The notes under the pieces are model-generated. The model was not told the origin of the DNA and searched no databases. It saw only the letters and a list, made by a program, of their open reading frames with translations. Source: Enchytraeus crypticus (lineage: Eukaryota > Annelida > Clitellata > Enchytraeida > Enchytraeidae). Taken from it: 64,000 bases of DNA. Position 1 is the stretch's first letter; each line of letters begins with the position of its first letter. Positions 30,991-59,817 of this stretch are shown here, piece after piece. A program made the position numbers and the translations under genes. Location: contig CAJHZI010000609.1 in assembly GCA_905160935.1 (NCBI GenBank), positions 476,501-540,500 on the forward strand, in the 5' to 3' direction.

Positions 30991-32104
30991 TGACTTATTC
31001 ACATCGTATACATCCAATGATGACATACATGAATCAGAAAAATTCCTAATCGCAATAGTGTAGTACTCAATTTTGTTGCTGGTAATATATAACGTATATT
31101 GCTTATTCTCATGAAGGAATTTTTAGTAATTCACGCAGAAATTGAGTATATAAAATAAATTTGTAAATTTATTGGACCAATATTTACATTATTAAAGGAA
31201 AAATACTTTTTCGCAGATTCTCGACAGAGTTTTGAAACTGTGAAATTCATTCAATTTGTGACGTGTAGATGTACTATCGATCAATGCTTTAGTTACTTAC
31301 GTAACGAAAAGGCTTGAAGCCTTCTAATGTTTAATGATGATAGCGGAAACCGTAGGACAAGGCAAAGACTTAAGAAAGAATAAGGCAAAGCGAGAGTTGC
31401 TTAAAAGTTGTAGTTCGTAACTGCAGACAGAAGGCCTATTAGCGTCAGTAGTGGAACGGAATTTTAGTTCAGGTATGATTTTAAGTTAATTAAAGGATGT
31501 AATGTTAAGCTACATGTCTACTAGTAACAGTTACGAAACTACGACACCGTACTTACCTCTGACACAGTCTTTAAGATTAGTTTTACTTGATTCCAGGATA
31601 TTTTTTCAGGTTATGAGATTTTCCGGCGAGGTTTGATCATAGATCATTGTATATAGCGCTTATCAATAAATTATGTGAGATTGAAAAATAATATAATGAG
31701 AGAGAGAGAAAAAGAAATAGAGACAGAGAATGGGAAGAAGGTCATATCAAGACTACAGGACGTTGTGGATTTACCAGCAGGCACATATTCCTCTCTATCT
31801 CTCTCTCTCTCTCAAAGAGAGAAAGAGAGAGAGAGAGAGATGGATGGATATACAGTACGTGTACAGCATATATTTCTCTGAGCTGCATTTACAGATTTAT
31901 TAGGTTCGAGTTGTGTGATACAGGAGTGTGCACTCCTGCATCTTCATGTATTATCCTCATTATTTTATTTTCATATTAGTTATCTTCATGTGCTGACATG
32001 AACTTTGTGCTGGCAGGTAGATGTAAGAATTTTAATTGAACATTATTAGACATCGTATTTATTTATTTTCGTCTTTCAATTACATTGTAGGGTGTTTTCC
32101 AAAA

Positions 32105-44279
<12,175 letters not shown>

Positions 44280-47802: not shown

Positions 47803-50038
47803 ATGAAGCTGATTCTTGAGTCGCTTTCTATGGAAGCTAAAATTAAATGGACTCTAATTCTGCTCCTTTTGGTGATTCAAACGGATGTTGTGAAAAATCA
47901 GAATATGCACGCTACCGGTAAGTACATGTACGTGCCATACGTATAATTCTCTCTTTCTCATTTTGCCAAAACGCTAGATGAAAGTAGCAGGCACATTAGC
48001 ACTGAGCCTGTACTTAACCGGCTTTGGCTTTCATCCTACCAAATCTTTGATCACATGCAAATGCTATGCCCCTGCCGAGCAATAATTGCAGCCTTAAAAT
48101 GAGAAATGGCTTTAAGGTAGTTTCTCATCAAGTTCTTCATTATTTGGTTAGCAGCCTCAGCCGTGCCCAGTTCAATATCTAGTCGACAAATTCCACAAAT
48201 TCACACGTGAACATGTTGTTGTTATCTATTAGCAGATGCTTGCATGCTATTTTCTATCAAAGCGCTTTTATCTGTAGTAGCTCAAATTTGATGATTTTGA
48301 TGTTGTAATAGATTGAATTAGAATTTTATTAAATATATCGTGGAAAGCTATGATGATTTAAAAAGTAGGATCTTAGCTATTGAATGTACGACTCTAAATA
48401 AAATTCTAACACAAAAATATCAATAAACCAAAATAATGCTAGTTTAGATTTTTCATTGATGATTGATAATAAAAAAATAAATCAGGTTGATTTTATAAAA
48501 TTTCTAGGTGTTATTATTGATGATCCAAAATTTACATTGCAGCGACATGTTTCCAGTGTGTCACTAAAAGTTTCAAAATCTCTATACGCCCTTATGCGAG
48601 TGAAATTTAAATTACAAAAAATTGCACGTTTTGTGGGGTTGTGCATCTGTATCTGTACTAAAAGATTTATTTTTACTGCAAAAACGAGCCATTAGAATTA
48701 TAAATAAATATGACTACTTTTCACATACTTCTCCGATATTTAAAGATCTATCTTTGCTAAAATTGTAAGATATCAATTTTTCTGTACTATGCTATTCCTA
48801 TTTAAATTTAAAGTAATTATCTACCTGCATAACCAATTCTTGACGGTTAATAAACCTATAGTTGATAGTTTATATTGTTTTGGATCAATAAATGAACATT
48901 TAATTTCCTTTTCATATAGGGACTACAATAACATGTATACAAACAGCATTCATTTTTCACTCAATCTTTTTTTAATTTGTTTTCAAGTCATAATAAACAA
49001 CAAATACAGCATACTTATAATTACAAACTAAACTAGTATTCAGAAAGAGTGTTACCACAAAAGGAGCCTAAGCTCTGTGAGGTAATACAGTCAGTAGCAA
49101 TTACAAAAAATAACAAAATTAATACGTTTACTTATTGACTTCTGTGCTACAGAATACTGTAGAACCTATGGCAACATACACATTAATTACTGGCCATAAA
49201 AGATAGTAAATATCTGAAACATAGTTAGATAAATGTAAAGTAAAAGATAGTCTACTTAAACCTTAGTCATAAGGTAATAAAAAATCAAATGAACTAAATC
49301 AATATTGAGCTAATATCAAACTAAACATTTAGTTGACTTAGGGTCTAAAAAGGAAATAGAGCTACATGTATGTATAGTGTAGGGTAAATTGTTCCGTAGT
49401 TTAGGACCACGTACATATGAGCTTTTCATACGAATATTGGTAGGCCTACTTTTTCTCTTAAGTACTGTATTCCTAATTCTTTACCTACACTTGGCTTGAT
49501 TTAATATTTGTTATATGGGACTACTAGCCTCTGAATTAAAATGATTTGATTGGATTTTTGTCGTAGCAATAAGGTAGGTATATTTCGCTTAAATATATTG
49601 CCTTCAACTGATAACTTTATTAATTGTGTAGGAATTTTGAATGGGAGCCAAATGGAGCCAATAAACGAGGAGTCGAGATTGATCAGAGTTCTTCTGGACC
49701 CGCAGAGATACGATAAACTGGCTCGACCTGTGCGCAACTCATCGAGAGCCGTCGTTGTCCACGGAGCGTACTACTTGGAGGCTATTCTTGATTTGGTTGG
49801 ACTTTTTACAGTTTACAAGTGCGATTAATAACCGATAGGTTTTTAATCTATTTCAAACCAAAAACAATTTGCATTCAAGATTTTATTGCTCGATTGTTGC
49901 ATGTAATTGATATTATATTTAGTATTTCAATTTATTTTATAAATATTAATTTATGACACAAAAGTCAAGAAGCAAAGCCCCCACAAAACCCACAAAAGCA
50001 CACATAACTAACGAAACACAATACACACGCAGAAGCAC

Positions 50039-51397: not shown

Positions 51398-54300
51398 TGT
51401 ATCCTGTCTGTTTATGATGAATAAAGAAATGAACATATTATTATAATAATTATAATAATAATAATAATAATAATAATTATTATTATTATTATATAGCATT
51501 ATTATTATTATTTTTACTTTATTAATAATAATAATAATAATTATTATTATTATTATTATTATTATATAGCATTATTATCATTATTTTTACTTTATTATTA
51601 TTATTATTATTATTTATTTTTAAATGCCCTGGGTTGTAAAGGGCCCTGGGCTAGAAAATAAGATAAAAGAGACTTTATTTAATTAAAGAGCTGAAAGAAA
51701 GTGGCGTCATACCCATTCAGATTTTTGGAAAACTGTTTCTAATTTGCAACACAAGATTTATCGTACTGCTATTTGCTAATGCTAAGAAAGAGTACTACTC
51801 CTCTTTGGTCAGTAAGGCTGAGAATGTCAAGAGTTTATGGACAACCGTTAATGATCTTTTACATAGATCTATTTCTCCTTCTCTTCCTTCTACTCCTGTG
51901 GAGTCACTGCCTGATTAGCAGGCAGCGTGACGTCGTGTGTTGACAGACTGTTTATTTATTGATTTATAATAAATAAATAGAATTTTAATGAAATTTAGCG
52001 TCTTGAGTGAATAGTTTTAGACTTAAGTTCATTGGCGTACTTTTAACTTGGTTCATAGTTCTATGTTATATTGTTAATCTATTATATAGTTATTTTGTTG
52101 AAAAATCAATTTGCAGTTTTGACCGTTATTTTACCGTTATAGTTGATCCGTTACACGTTATTTTATATTGATTTTAGTGTTTAAATTGTTAAAGTTATAG
52201 TGTTTACGTTTTGATCGTTAGTTAATTATTGCATATTTGTATTTTTTATGTAATTTGTGTATAACTATATTGCAATTTATATTGTACTTTCTGCATTGTT
52301 TACAAGTACTGTTTTTCCAGTTTTGTAAGCATGTTTCGATCGAGAATTCCGGTTAATTGTCTTCGAAGCAATATTTCTCTTTGCTCTCTTAACATCCGAT
52401 CTCTCTCTAACTCAGACCATATCATTGCTTTGCATGATTTGGCTGAGACTCACAAGTTTGATTGTTTTGCTATCAATGAAACTTGGCTATCCTCTATAAC
52501 CACTCCTTCTGAACTGATGTCTATTCTTCCTCCAGGTTATGATATGTTTATTGCAAATCGTGACTCTAGGATATCTGGTGCTAAGGGTGGTGGAGTTGCT
52601 CTCCTACTAAGGAAGCCCTTTACCCTTCTTAGCAATGACTGTCATAAATTTTCTTCATTTGAAGCAATTTCAGTCACTGGTAAATTTAGCACATGTACTC
52701 TGCATGTTGTTGCAGTGTATCGACCACCATCTTCTTCCCCTTATGCCAAACCTTTCTCTCTCTTTTTATCGGAGTTTTCTACCCTACTCTCCTTCCTTAC
52801 TACTTCTAAATCAGACTTTGTGATTACAGGTGACCTCAACATTCACCTTGATAATCCTCTTGATCCCTTAACTTAGCATTTTAATACTTTGCTGCCTCTT
52901 GTAATGCTGTTCAACATGTGAATGTTGCTACTCATATTGACAATCATACACTTGATGTTGTTATTGCACCAAGTCTCTCTGCTATTGATCCTTTAAGTGT
53001 TACTATTTTATCTCACTCGCCGTCAGACCATTTTCCTGTTGTATTCACTTATAATCATGTTAAGCCAGATACTATTAAAAATTCACCTACTGTTTCATTT
53101 AGGTGTGTAAATAACGTTGATCTTGATCTCTTTTGTTCTGATCTTGAAAATTCGACCTTGATCAAGTCTTCTGCTAATGATCTTGATGAATTAGTAAAAC
53201 AGTATAACACTACTCTTTCATCTCTACTTGATAAGCATGCACCTCTAACTACCAAGAAGCTTAGGAAATCTAACCCTTGGTATACTTCTGGTTTGAGAAA
53301 GCTAAAGGCTGCATGCTGTAGAGCTGAAAGAAAGTGGCGTCATACCCATTCAGATTTTTGGAAAACTGTTTCTAATTTGCAACACAAGATTTATCGTACT
53401 GCTATTTGCTAATGCTAAGAAAGAGTACTACTCCTCTTTGGTCAGTAAGGCTGAGAATGTCAAGAGTTTATGGACAACCGTTAATGATCTTTTACATAGA
53501 TCTATTTCTCCTTCTCTTCCTTCTACTCCTGTGGAGTCACTGCCTGAACAATTTTCCAAATACTTTACAGATAAGATAAGCAATCTTAGAGAATCTATCA
53601 CTCCAGCTCCTAACTCTACTCCTCATACTCCTGCAACAAAGTTTTCAGTCTATATCCTCTTGGATGTCTGCTAATTTCTTGGCACTTAATCCATCTAAGA
53701 CTGAATTCTTGTTGGTCGGGACACCTCAACAGTTTCTGAAGCTGAATGGGAAAACTCTTTCGTTATCTTCGGGTATTAAAATATCACCTGTTTCTTCTGT
53801 GAGAAATCTCGGTGTTATCCTTGATAAACACCTAACCTTCCACGAACACAACTAAAATTCACAAGCATGTTTCTTCCATATCCGTGATCTTCGTCGAATA
53901 CGTCCATATTTGTCACGTGAGACAGCTGCTACAATTGGTGCGGCTCTTGTGCAATCGAAGTTGGACTACTGCAATTCCCTGTTTTTAAATCTCCCTGGCT
54001 GTGATTGATCGGTTGCAGTTTGTTCAAAATTCTCTTGCGCCAGCAATTTTTTGTAGTTCCAAGTACTCACATCTTACGCCTATTTTGAAGTCTTTGCACT
54101 GGCTAAAGATTAAAGAGCGTATCATTTACAAAACAGCTTCGTTAACCTATAAGTCCATCACCATCCCTGGACAAACTTGTACGTCTCACTTGATTAAAGT
54201 GATGCAGCCTGCTATTACTCGGTCTTCTAAGTTAATTACTCTTGTGAGACGTAGCTTACCTTCACGCTGTAAGCTATCTAATCGTTCTTTCCAGCATGAT

Positions 54301-55167: not shown

Positions 55168-58100
55168 TATTATTATTATTATTTTATATATAGATCTCTG
55201 TTAATCAAATATTGAGATAAATATGTAAGTGTGTTTTTGTAGGCAAATCTTTAGATACTTGCTTATTAGCATGTTTTTTTATAGAATTAGATGTCTGGAC
55301 CAGCGGGAATTTTCACAAAAACCTACGCTATAATTTTATAAAGTAGGACTTCAAAGGTTAATCTATTAATCTATTAAACGCAAGTATTCTATACAAGTTG
55401 TCCAGAGACTCTGGACAATTTCATCTACGGAATACTTGCGTTCGAGAAGTATTTGTCTAATTTTAAAGTTTCAATATGTTTCTTCATTCTATTTTTATAT
55501 CTTCGCTCTAAAGAAGAAGACTTTGGTACGAAACTTTGGTTTAATGCGTAAATTCTATAGACTATGTTGCTAAATCTGAATACATGCAATAATTTTGCAG
55601 TCATGGACGGATGAGTTTCTACAATGGAACGCTGAAGATTTTTCAGGATTAAGATCGATTGTTGTTCCAACAACTGAGACCTGGTACCCTGATATTGTTG
55701 TTAGGAATAGGTAGGGTTATTGTTACCTCTTTGCAATATAAAATAAGGCCAAATCTGTGTTTAGCGTCAGTTTCTGTCTCAAAATCATGTCAGTGACAGA
55801 TCGTGTACGGTACTGAATAGTAGTACAGTATTGAACAGTAGTACAGTACTGAACAGTAGTACAGTCTTGAACAGTAGTACAGTACTGAACAGTAGTACAG
55901 TCTTGAACAGTAGTATAGTATTGAACAGTAGTACAGTCTTGAACAGTAGTATAGTATTGAACAGTAGTACAGTATTAAACAGTAGTACAGTATTGAACAG
56001 TAGTACAGTCTTAAACAGTAGTACAGTATTGAACAGTAGTACAGTATTGAACAGTAGTTCAGTCTTGAACAGTAGTACAGTATTGAACAGTAGTATGGAA
56101 GTGAATAGTAATCATCATCATCATCATCATCATCATAATCATCATCATCATCTTCATCATCGTCATCATCATTATCATCACGTTTCCTTGAATCACGGTT
56201 TTAAACAGGGTTGGTTGGGATTAGGACCTTTTGTAGCGCTCACCAACCGAATGCCCTTTTTGACTTTGGTTTGAATCTTAGTGATTTTATATTTATGTAA
56301 AATACAAATTATTATTATATGCGTGCATGCTTTCAGGCCAGATGAAAGTTTTGTATTCCTACTAATTACTTGGACTTGAAATTTTTACTGAACAGCTATG
56401 GAAATATGAAAATATAGGTTGGTGGAAACAGTTGTGATGTAAGATATTTTCTAACGTTATTCATGTATTCTTACCCATTAGTTTCATCTAATTTTATTTG
56501 TGCAGTAGGCAATGCTCATAGCTGGACATAAATGATAAATTACTTTAAAATATATGTAATAATTCGTACAAGTAAAGCCTACCGATTACTTCATTTATTA
56601 ACTGAACAATGAACTATTTCATGATTGCACAATTTCTTATTAAATTTCTATAAATTTATATATAACCTAAAGTGCTTCTTATAAATAAGCATAAACTGGA
56701 TAGATCACTACAGACATGGAGCCAGTGGCGATGTCGGTAAAATATTCGACCGCGAGCAGGGGCGGGGTTCAAATCCTGGGCATGCCCGTTACTAATATCT
56801 CTTTCGAGTAAGGAAACTGACGTTAACATTAGCTTTTCTACTATCATTTATAACAGTGCAGATCAGCTATACGGTGATTTCTTGGACGCAACTAAGTACT
56901 TCACCTACGTGGGTTCCTCAGGGTTCACGCAGTACTGCCCTGCTGGTAAGTCCAGCACAACGTGCCTCCTCGATCTCACCTACTTCCCATTCGACGCTCA
57001 GGCTTGCTACATAGAGCTGGACAGCTGGACCCAGGATGTAACTAGGCTGAAACTGCTGGTCTGTAGTTCTTGATTGCTATGACTCACTTTTTATTAATCA
57101 GCTGGACTCAGGATGTCACTAGGCTAAAGCTCCTGGTCTGTAGCTCTTGATTACTATGGCTCACTGCTCAGACTTCTTTCCTGTCATCTATTGCACAGGA
57201 AGTCTTTGTTTCGATTCCAGTGTCAGATTAACTGTTAAAGTAGCAAAATTTCATTCAATAATTCATAGATAAATTTAAATTTAAAAATTAAGATAATAAA
57301 ATTTACGCGAAGATGGAAAATGTTTTAAGAGTTAACACACAACCGTTAGCTTGAGGATAGGTCAAATTTTGGCATTTGATGTTTGATAGTTGACTATTTC
57401 AAATTATTGAAATTTCGATTTCTAGATGAAGCATAAACAAATGATAGCATATTTCTTGAATGTAGATACTAAACATATGTTATAGATTTTGCTATAATAT
57501 ACATTAATTTTGCAAGCTTATAATATTACGTTTGCATTGAGTGTCATGATGTTTTAGTAAATTTTAATTGCTTTAAAAGATTTTTTGTTGTATTTGTTTG
57601 GGGCACATGTTGGTGCCTTAGGGCCTTTGAGTCCATTTCACTTCATCTTTATTCTTAGCGTAATTACATCGGGATGGACTTACATCTACTAAAAATTAGC
57701 ATATGAAGTACATGTAAATTTTCTACTATAAAAATACAAAGCCATAATAGGGATTAACTAAGTAATCTACTACTTTTAGAAATGGAAGAAACCCGGCTGA
57801 TTCGTATTAATAGTTTAAATCATGGGCTAGCCAGTCACTGACATCGCGTTTGAGTAAGGAAACTGACGTTAACCTTAGCTTTTTAACAGCTTTTTTCATA
57901 GTCTTGTGTATCGTTGACAACAATGAATCAGACTAGAAGTATGATCTGATTACCATCAGATAATTGCCTGACTGATATTCAACTTCATTCGAAGCTGGAA
58001 TCCCAATTTATCGTAAAATCTATGTTGATATATTAACTCTCTATACAATATAAACATATTTGAAGGTTATAGACCAAGTATTCACAACCAGTTATAGACA

Positions 58101-59817
58101 GAACAGCCAGTGGAAGCTGGAAAAAGCCACAATACAGAACGACACTGTTATCGGCTACAGCATCATTCGTTTCCACTTCCACCTTAGACGTAAGCCTACC
58201 TACTTTCTCTTGACTATTGTTCTGCCAGTGGTGGTTATGACCTTCATGTCAGTCTTGGTCTTCCTCGTTCCCAACGAAGCCGGAGAAAAAATATCCCTCC
58301 AAGTGACCATCCTGCTATCCTTCTCCGTGTTCCAGCTTGTGATCGCTGATCACATGCCCAATGCATCCGACTATACCCCTATCATTAGTAAGTGCACTAC
58401 TAATTCTTATCAATAAAATAATAATAAATAATAATTTTTAATAAATAAAAATATATAATCTTATCAATTTTACGAGTACATCCTACCCGCCTTGTGTCGT
58501 GTTCGCTAAAGAATAAACCAACCGTAAGAGACGAGTGAGCAAGAATTGAAGAAGGCAAAGGGAAACCACCTCAGAAACCATATTTTTCCCTATCTATAGG
58601 CTGCAAATTATAGAATTCTATTTCAGTAAATGTATTCTTTCAAAATATAAATGTTATTTTAAAATTGTTCCTGCATAGTGCTGTTCTAAATCACATGAAT
58701 ATAGGATATCATATTTGTGTTAATTTGTAATTAACAATCAACTACCATAGTCGCAAAGGGTCACAACTTGAATAGCAGCTAGATGTTTATCTGCTTTATT
58801 TCACTAAAATAATTTTGAAAGGATTAGGTATTAAGAATTCGTGTAATATAGTTCACTGCTCTAACAGCGCACAAGATGCGCTTCAGTTGAGCTTAAAAAT
58901 CTCAAATAATTCTGAGCGATTTTTTAATTATAAATAATAGTTTGCGGATATGCAAACTATTATTTTAGTCAATTAAGAGTTGAGAGAACAGCAATAGCTC
59001 GATATTACAATTCGTTATAGCAATCTATTTGATTGTTGCGATTGCATAACAGTCAATATTTAATTTATATATTATTATATTACATAAATATATATTAATT
59101 TCTTTTTGTAACATTCAATATTTAGGTGTCTACGTCTTGTGCAGTATGCTTCTCTCGTCTCTGTCGCTCTTGGTAACAATTCTGCTGCAGAGAATTCATC
59201 ATGCAATCTTCAAACCGTTTCCGCACTGGCTTGATGTCTTAACTTTCGATGTCATTGGCAAAATTATGGGAGGCAAGAGACCAAACTTAGATTCATCCAG
59301 TTCAAGATGGTTTGAAAGGTCGTCTAAGGACTTGAATGATGTTCTTCTTGGTGAGGATCATGTTCATCATAGTTCTGAAAAGAAAATATCGTTCATAGGA
59401 GATAAATCATTCCTCGACAACGAGAGTCCACCCTTTCGCTATGAAAGCCTCTCGGGTGAAGTACAGGAAACAAATAAATGCGGTAGAAGGATGAGATTTC
59501 ATGACGAAGAAGCAATCACTTCAGATTTTAGAGGACCCTGCTTTAGCGCAAAACGCTCTTCAAATTTCAAGAAAAGGGGAGGTAACGTTAGAGGCCTGAA
59601 AGACAGAGCTTTCTCAAGAGACGACGGTTCCCTTTTTCAGAAGATTAACAACTGGAATATAGATGAAGATGCTGTGTACAAATCAGCAAGTGAAATCTTG
59701 GATAGATTCTTTCTCTACTTATTTACATTTGTAATGATCGCTGGAACTATTGCTATGTTTGTTACATTCGGTATTGCTGGATCAAAAGAAGCCAAACCCA
59801 TTGGAATTGTTGTATAG
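47803..59817 (+). CDS. Cys-loop ligand-gated ion channel subunit (nicotinic-receptor-like), gene 2
   Basis: Seven exons join in phase: 47803-47917, 49632-49795, 50659-50703 (45 nt), 55601-55710, 56857-57058, 58066-58387, 59126-59817 (TAG). The product is about 549 aa. The first exon encodes a signal-peptide-like stretch ([12 protein letters not shown]); a second in-frame ATG follows at codon 10. The Cys-loop is [15 protein letters not shown] (Cys181-Cys195), with loop [12 protein letters not shown]1-TM2 is nearly identical to gene 1, and TM2 is preceded by NEAGEK (cation type). TM4 lies in the last exon ([16 protein letters not shown]). The vicinal cysteines of alpha subunits are absent. Exon count, the sizes of exons 3 to 6 and all phases match gene 1, so the two are tandem duplicates. 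Three donors are unusual for this window (gttgga after 49795, gttaga after 50703, gtctgt after 57058). A LINE of over 2 kb sits in intron 3. Confidence 0.93.
48430..49040 (+). pseudogene. LINE reverse-transcriptase C-terminal remnant
   Basis: Broken frames carry [20 protein letters not shown], then [20 protein letters not shown] and [11 protein letters not shown]. These match the usual order FKFLGVx[11 protein letters not shown], PLFKxLxILKL at the end of LINE RTs. There is no intact ORF. It lies in intron 1 of channel gene 2. Confidence 0.8.
50137..50458 (+). repeat. Direct duplication of ~100 bp (50137-50237 and 50358-50458)
   Basis: Both copies run from cgtatcaaaattaggaatac to attatcatcac with about nine differences, separated by 120 bp. 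They lie in intron 2 of channel gene 2. Confidence 0.85.
50930..51130 (-). repeat. Repeat B, near full-length
   Basis: This reverse copy runs from ctgccaagtggcaggttcga to ttcttgcttagtcgctaatt. It lies in intron 3 of channel gene 2. Confidence 0.7.
51325..51400. repeat. (TA)n-(TG)n microsatellite
   Basis: TA run followed by a long TG run, in intron 3 of channel gene 2. Confidence 0.9.
51440..51620. repeat. (AAT)n-(ATT)n inverted microsatellite, duplicated in tandem
   Basis: Each half has an AAT run followed by an ATT run, then tatagcattattat and tttttactttatta. The AAT/ATT runs are self-complementary and could form hairpins. Confidence 0.85.
51688..51913 (+). repeat. Perfect ~226-bp copy of an internal LINE segment (same as 53321-53547)
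   Basis: From agagctgaaagaaagtggcg to gtggagtcactgcctga the sequence matches 53321-53547 base for base by eye, including the frame-breaking extra base at the 'tgctaatgctaag' site. It sits upstream of the LINE's 5' leader, head-to-tail with the element. The junction contains CTGCCTG-attag-CAGGCAG, an inverted repeat. Confidence 0.9.
51914..52330 (+). other. LINE 5' leader (no ORF)
   Basis: AT-rich sequence lies between the duplicated segment and the first endonuclease codons. It starts at an inverted-repeat junction and is probably the 5' untranslated region of the LINE. I see no promoter motif I can defend. Confidence 0.4.
52331..53674 (+). pseudogene. LINE ORF2 remnant: endonuclease domain and start of RT linker
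   Basis: Three consecutive frames (52331-52876, 52918-53412, 53438-53674) read as one endonuclease-to-RT protein broken by a stop, a frameshift and a 1-nt insertion at 53409-53413. Catalytic endonuclease motifs (Asn, Glu-Thr, Tyr-Arg-Pro-Pro, Gly-Asp-Leu-Asn, Ser-Asp-His) are all still readable, so the copy is fairly young. Confidence 0.85.
52331..54620 (+). mobile_element. LINE (non-LTR retrotransposon, CR1/L2-like), internally deleted
   Basis: The 5' part encodes an apurinic/apyrimidinic endonuclease: [41 protein letters not shown] and, after a stop at 52874-52876 and a frame change, [11 protein letters not shown] second frame break occurs at 53412. At about 53640 the sequence jumps from the start of the reverse transcriptase linker straight to the end of the RT domain ([23 protein letters not shown]) and the C-terminal blocks ([36 protein letters not shown]). 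The RT catalytic core is therefore deleted. The 3' end runs into a TTA-type microsatellite tail. It lies sense in intron 3 of channel gene 2. Confidence 0.9.
54635..54870 (-). pseudogene. Retroelement protein fragment (LETLGPINS type)
   Basis: The minus strand reads [19 protein letters not shown], then [14 protein letters not shown] and [14 protein letters not shown]. This block recurs, to my memory, at the C terminus of reverse-transcriptase-bearing ORFs in invertebrate genomes. It ends at a stop near [13 protein letters not shown]. It abuts the 3' tail of the sense LINE and is flanked by TTA/TAG microsatellite. Confidence 0.55.
55760..55802 (-). mobile_element. SINE A, tail fragment
   Basis: The match is short (gcgtcagtttctgtctcaaa, atgtcagtgacag), just after exon 4 of channel gene 2 and before an 18-bp satellite. 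Confidence 0.45.
55805..56100 (+). repeat. 18-bp satellite, about 16 copies, in intron 4 of channel gene 2
   Basis: The unit aacagtagtacagtattg is repeated without indels, so one frame stays open and reads as repeats of NSSTVL. An (ATC)n run follows at 56110-56180. Confidence 0.95.
56714..56838 (+). mobile_element. SINE A abutting exon 5 of channel gene 2
   Basis: It has head ggagccagtggcgatgtcgg, B box GGTTCAAATCC, and tail gacgttaacattagctttt ending 18 bp before the exon at 56857, so part of the pyrimidine tract of that acceptor comes from the SINE. Confidence 0.8.
57022..57165 (+). repeat. 77-bp tandem duplication spanning the 3' end of channel gene 2 exon 5
   Basis: Copy 1 starts at 57022 (cagctggacccaggatgta) and includes the last 12 codons of the exon plus the donor and about 29 intron bases. 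Copy 2 starts at 57099 (cagctggactcaggatgtc). Over 12 codons there are five differences, all third-position and synonymous; about three more occur in the next 29 bases. Confidence 0.9.
57811..57896 (+). mobile_element. SINE A, head truncated
   Basis: It carries gccagtcactgacatcgcgt, aactgacgttaaccttagct and the agcttttt end. It lies in intron 5 of channel gene 2, shortly before exon 6. Confidence 0.7.
58505..58612 (+). repeat. Repeat B, 5' half
   Basis: It contains ctaaagaataaaccaaccgt, gagcaagaattgaagaagg and gggaaaccacctcagaaacc. It lies in intron 6 of channel gene 2. Confidence 0.7.

Follow-up and report, generated by a model that had tools for sequence, protein, structure and literature searches.

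In the potato RdRp gene, a tandem genomic duplication lies across an exon-intron boundary; it copied the acceptor side, and a newly formed intron was detected (PMC4974935). In insects, exons 4 and 4' of nAChR alpha4, located near the Cys-loop, are whole exons that are duplicated and expressed (PMC2045683), and tandem duplicated exon substitutions in human genes are enriched in ion-channel and transporter genes (PMC9741552).

Here, we describe a duplicated exon end, that of exon 5 in a receptor gene referred to as channel gene 2, in a window of 64,000 nucleotides of Enchytraeus crypticus DNA; the window is the whole stretch that was analyzed, and all coordinates refer to it. Like the potato duplication, it is short, tandem and placed over an exon-intron boundary, so that splice signals were duplicated; in potato, however, the acceptor side was copied and a new intron detected, whereas in gene 2 it is the donor side and a new intron would be hypothetical. 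As in insect alpha4, the segment that was duplicated belongs to this part of a receptor of the Cys-loop superfamily; in contrast to the whole expressed exons found there, the segment in gene 2, read from DNA, comprises only the last 36 coding nt and the donor, and would encode an identical peptide. Tandem exon material in a gene of the ion-channel class is also common to gene 2 and the human cases, in which homologous exons alternate with each other, whereas copy 2 would encode the same peptide without the rest of the exon. No published report of the duplicated end of exon 5 of gene 2 was found in the literature searched, which does not prove its absence.

The locus is probably best explained as an old local tandem duplication, ordinary in kind, of which copy 2 survives inside the intron as a relic that carries a second, unneeded donor and a chance acceptor. 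Seen in this way, the locus illustrates clearly, on a small scale, how a short tandem duplication can copy splice sites without harming the gene. Splicing of copy 2, should it occur, would make the duplication a donor-side counterpart of the known acceptor-side route to new introns or exons, in a ligand-site loop within a strongly expanded receptor family.

The Duplicated Exon End

A direct repeat of 67 nt joins positions 57022-57088 (copy 1) to 57099-57165 (copy 2) on the plus strand, 77 nt apart, with 59 of the 67 positions identical (88%) in an ungapped alignment, and TRF reports the same region, 57022-57165, as an array of period 77 with 1.9 copies. Such a repeat is far beyond chance, and the duplication is real. 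By repeat search, reading frame and junction, copy 1 comprises the last 12 codons of exon 5 (57023-57058), the donor and the first 30 nt of intron 5; copy 2, delimited by the repeat search, is an intronic duplicate of the same 67 nt with eight mismatches and no indel. The two are separated by a filler of 10 nt, TTTTATTAAT (57089-57098, plus strand), which is T-rich and forms, together with the CAG that follows it, an acceptor-like sequence, tttttattaatcag, ending at 57101. A prior sequence-only reading, made from this DNA without database searches, had claimed a tandem copy of the exon end, the donor and about 29 intronic bases at a distance of 77 bp, preceded by an acceptor-like sequence; both the copy, its intronic part being 30 nt, and the acceptor-like sequence are present. 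The arrangement is that of a local tandem duplication, i.e., two head-to-tail copies for which a genome search returned no further copy, although copies may be missed by such a search.

The Host Gene and Its Probable Natural Donor

Gene 2 was modeled on the plus strand from exon 4 (55601-55710), placed by the joined open frame, exon 5 (56857-57058; 202 nt, phase 2 to 0), which carries the Cys-loop and loop-B region, exon 6 (58066-58387), which carries TM1-TM3, and exon 7 (59126-59817), which carries the intracellular loop, TM4 and the stop and was placed by the joined frame and Pfam. Joined via the copy 1 donor at 57058, exons 4-7 form a single open frame with a stop after TM4, and the product matches Neur_chan_LBD (3e-28) and Neur_chan_memb (1.3e-27) in Pfam; this frame, like the repeat, is a direct observation. 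An exon further upstream was glimpsed as a tblastx match at 49655-49801, the frame model being that of exons 4-7. When aligned to solved nAChR chains, exon 5 displays two Cys residues 13 residues apart and the loop-B Trp (SWTQ), and the joined protein of exons 5 and 6 aligns with such chains across the junction to within one residue, as the alpha-6 chain has one extra residue three residues past the junction and the alpha-7 chains have one fewer at the junction. By its predicted ligand-binding and membrane domains and its Cys-loop, the host is a nicotinic-type Cys-loop receptor. The loop-C stretch in exon 6 contains no Cys and thus lacks the vicinal pair of the alpha type, which by that rule makes gene 2 a non-alpha-type subunit.

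The presumed normal donor of exon 5 (57059-57064, plus strand) reads GTCTGT after CTG. Since exons 4-7 stay open through it, the neighboring paralogous gene 1 has an exon 5 of the same length (35367-35568, plus strand; 202 nt) and the spacing between the SW and QW motifs agrees with that of paralogs, we infer that the upstream, copy 1 donor at 57058 is the natural one. Exons 4-7 of gene 1 join in the same way as those of gene 2, and 24 residues lie between SW and QW in gene 2, in gene 1 and in an intron-less paralog (L011). Elsewhere the spacing is 25 (L013, L014, and L016), 26 (L033) or 21 (L015 and L017), hence length alone leaves room for a form of gene 2 with one more residue.

Two features of the surrounding introns may be recorded here. 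Intron 4 contains an 18-nt unit repeated about 16 times (55805-56095), and exon 5 is flanked by same-direction copies of a dispersed repeat (56717-56837 and 57813-57893), which we take to be SINE-like; the upstream one stops some 20 nt short of the exon 5 acceptor and may therefore supply its pyrimidine tract.

Divergence Between the Copies

The eight mismatches between the copies fall at 57031, 57040, 57049, 57052, 57055, 57067, 57076, and 57082; they share a single phase, corresponding to third codon positions in the exon frame. Five of them lie within the 12 codons, and comparison of the codons of both copies upheld the earlier claim that each is in third position and silent. The same reading had counted one more silent change before a TGA, and this too is correct for 57067, which is silent within a virtual read-through to VCSS; it had left uncounted 57076 and 57082. 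Both follow the in-frame TGA and are out of reach of coding constraint, so coding cannot account for the whole of the phase pattern. Reading the differences on the reverse strand, as judged by eye, was tried and rejected: a third-position fit exists, but in that frame one change would alter an amino acid and copy 2 would contain a stop.

The nominal probability of eight mismatches out of eight on one phase is 4.6e-4, calculated post hoc and for any phase. In a simulation that constrained copy 1 to keep its protein and left copy 2 free, the differences were all silent in 101 of the 10,892 runs with five exonic differences (0.9%); a smaller simulation with copy 2 free gave 7 of 1,126, and a cruder formula put the probability of five silent changes out of five at 0.0095-0.024. 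With both copies coding, 1,726 of 60,000 runs placed five of the eight differences in the exon with every one of the five silent, 17 times as many as the 101 of 60,000 obtained when copy 2 was free. All eight fell on the third position in 15 of 60,000 runs with copy 2 free, in 83 with both copies coding and in 5 with neither copy constrained. The five other repeat arrays of the window that served as controls each have mismatches on more than one phase. The silent-only pattern thus leans towards coding constraint as simulated, but rests on eight sites that were spotted post hoc.

These figures bear on an alternative in which copy 2 is, or recently was, used as a small exon and both copies diverged under coding constraint; the prior reading had suggested such constraint on copy 2. 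That suggestion is possible, and the simulated ratio of about 17:1 speaks for it; on the other side, two of the eight differences are not part of the frame at all, and divergence is higher at the third positions than in the intron next to them (5/12 vs. 3/30; Fisher p 0.03). Given the low prior for a functional copy 2, the relic is retained as the best reading despite the silent pattern.

Possible Use of Copy 2 in Splicing

Splice sites were scored with weight matrices not fitted to this organism. The nine bases around the donor (CTG/GTCTGT) are the same in both copies, so that the duplicated donor of copy 2 (57136-57141, plus strand) is identical over this 9-mer to the normal exon 5 donor, which is itself weak (score 0.71). 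The acceptor-like sequence ahead of copy 2 scores 2.59, compared with -0.46 for the inferred exon 5 acceptor, and at 57101 ranks in the 96th percentile among the AGs of the window. The strongest donor-like site nearby, CTG/GTAAGT at 56946-56951 (99.8th percentile of the GTs of the window), is located inside the coding part of exon 5.

Five alternative splice outcomes were written out from the sequence, three of which are in frame. Use of the distal copy 2 donor is predicted to let exon 5 read into VCSS and a stop, and insertion of a 34-nt exon (57102-57135) after exon 5 to shift the frame to a stop. A 24-nt microexon (57112-57135), preceded by an intron of 53 nt, would stay in frame and add DVTRLKLL, whereas a 74-nt intron (57038-57111) would stay in frame and add one Asp in loop B. 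Finally, splicing of exon 4 to 57102, with the 34-nt exon ending at 57135, would be in frame and skip the Cys-loop exon.

A small-exon role for copy 2 could accordingly take the form of the microexon (DVTRLKLL, or the single Asp from a donor at 57037) or of the 34-nt exon joined to exon 4, and the fit of three routes to the frame, an acceptor that scores above that of exon 5 and a donor equal to the normal one are consistent with it. The one-Asp form would give gene 2 25 residues between SW and QW, as in L013, L014, and L016, and duplicated alternative exons near the Cys-loop have a precedent in insect alpha4 (PMC2045683). Each route nevertheless carries a cost. The exon 5-skipping product would lose the Cys-loop part, its LBD match falling from 99.2 to 40.6 bits; the DVTRLKLL route needs the 53-nt intron, which is very short for an animal; and for the one-Asp route the donor at 57037 scores -0.38 vs. 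0.71 for the normal donor, and the acceptor at 57111 scores below that at 57101. We regard a present or recent exon role as unlikely, and the chance that copy 2 is expressed as low.

The narrower proposal is that the exon end and the T-rich filler created a new in-frame microexon or mini-intron, spliced in some tissue, which would lengthen loop B by DVTRLKLL or by one Asp, the peptide having been held since; we consider this decidedly improbable. If it were true, the birth of an exon or intron would have been caught, by way of a donor-side tandem duplication. Two related models were compared. Exact intron gain in the manner of the Rogers model was rejected, as AGGT is absent from both copies, the nearest route being the one that inserts an Asp. 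The structure also departs from that of mutually exclusive tandem exons, as copy 2 holds 36 of the 202 exon nt and is not a complete exon, though a 34-nt exon of phase 2 to 0 can be drawn.

Origin of Copy 2

The genome searched is an assembly of 524 Mb in 802 contigs, and the search scores the best candidates only (one for the 112-nt query), so that a copy could have been missed. A 301-nt query over the region found one full-length place and four exon-only matches to paralogs, of 43-69 nt and 80-93% identity, none of which extends past the first ten bases of the repeat; a 112-nt copy 2 query matched only itself and copy 1 in the assembly, where a missed copy is possible. Neither query revealed the closer match to copy 2 in another receptor gene for which the prior reading had proposed a search.

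That reading had offered conversion from a paralogous exon as a source, and copy 2 might derive from a paralogous receptor exon that had already diverged, an origin that would account for the silent-only divergence. The receptor family is large, with at least 98 protein matches to exon 5, and a displaced exon piece does occur in the window, namely an inverted 64-nt fragment of gene 1 exon 5 (31728-31791, minus strand, vs. 35439-35502; 62 of 64 nt identical). Against this, the paralog pieces stop within the first ten repeat bases, the searches yielded no other source, and the best paralog by protein, gene 1, reaches only 54%; moreover, such a source must also have supplied the 30 nt of intron, which match at 90%, though third positions differ at 5 of 12. 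We find a paralogous source very improbable. The companion claim of a misassembled second haplotype likewise found no support, and an assembly artefact in general, such as alleles or an erroneous sequence placed head to tail, is very improbable, given the single full-length place for the 301-nt query in the assembly, the unique flanks on both sides, the 10-nt filler and a divergence of 12% over only 67 nt.

Direct repeats at short range are not rare in this DNA. Among 250 random 200-nt pieces of the window, 20 had a direct repeat within 1.5 kb, with a spacing of up to 200 nt in six, and TRF lists a further six arrays across it, with periods of 43-97. At the 30 fetched exon 5 loci, drawn from at least 98 matches, a direct repeat of part or edge of the exon occurs within 1.5 kb in four (L009, L011, L014, and L029), which suggests no clear excess over the background; the comparison is rough, since the random pieces were searched as 200 nt on the direct strand with E up to 1e-5, and the exon 5 loci as longer pieces on both strands with E up to 1e-2.

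The most economical origin is a local duplication: direct repeats at short range are common, and the search, which scores its best candidates only, turned up neither a source among the paralogs nor a contig of a second haplotype. One such event, with its 10-nt filler, would have carried the last 12 codons, the donor and 30 intron nt to the start of intron 5. The spliceosome would keep using the copy 1 donor, copy 2 leaving with the intron, and gene 2 would have kept working because this upstream donor is still used. Copy 2, presumably a relic, would have drifted since, its spare donor unchanged and its acceptor arising by chance through the T-rich filler. Use of the spare donor without the upstream splice would lead to VCSS and the TGA, and such transcripts would therefore be truncated.

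Separately, the window contains a 228-nt direct repeat (51687-51914 and 53320-53547) whose copies are 100% identical and 1.6 kb apart; it flanks an endonuclease-type retroelement piece and is either recent or an effect of the assembly.

The Exon 5 Family

By protein matches, the receptor family sharing exon 5 is strongly expanded, and most of the 30 fetched loci read on without this intron. At 26 of the 30, the frame extends beyond the Cys-loop motif by more than 45 residues without a stop, in gene 1 (L010) by reading into the intron, and in the other 25 it continues over the Trp position. Of the remaining loci, L009 corresponds to gene 2, the frame of L025 is broken shortly past the motif, and L018 and L037 were missed by the motif; L018 has a donor-like break before the Trp, while L037 reads on. 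An ancestral intron between the S and W codons, in which case copy 2 would be an old separate exon, had been considered because many paralog protein matches end near the Trp; no such intron was seen among the 30 fetched loci, not all of which can be judged, and the idea was rejected.

Several paralogous loci carry repeats of their own. In L014 (locus positions 1661-1981), the acceptor and the first bases of exon 5 are present in three tandem copies of about 106 nt each, an acceptor-side duplication that is the mirror image of the donor-side case of gene 2. In L011, 44 nt of exon 5 coding sequence recur upstream within 1.5 kb at 80% identity, and in L029 a piece of 29 nt recurs at 97%. No direct copy of the exon end was found within 1.5 kb of gene 1 exon 5. 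The inverted fragment of that exon lies 3.6 kb upstream of it, with GA/TC simple repeats on either side, and the last intron of gene 1 harbors an antisense open frame of 595 codons (41498-43285, minus strand), which has no Pfam match at E 0.001 and is perhaps a mobile element.
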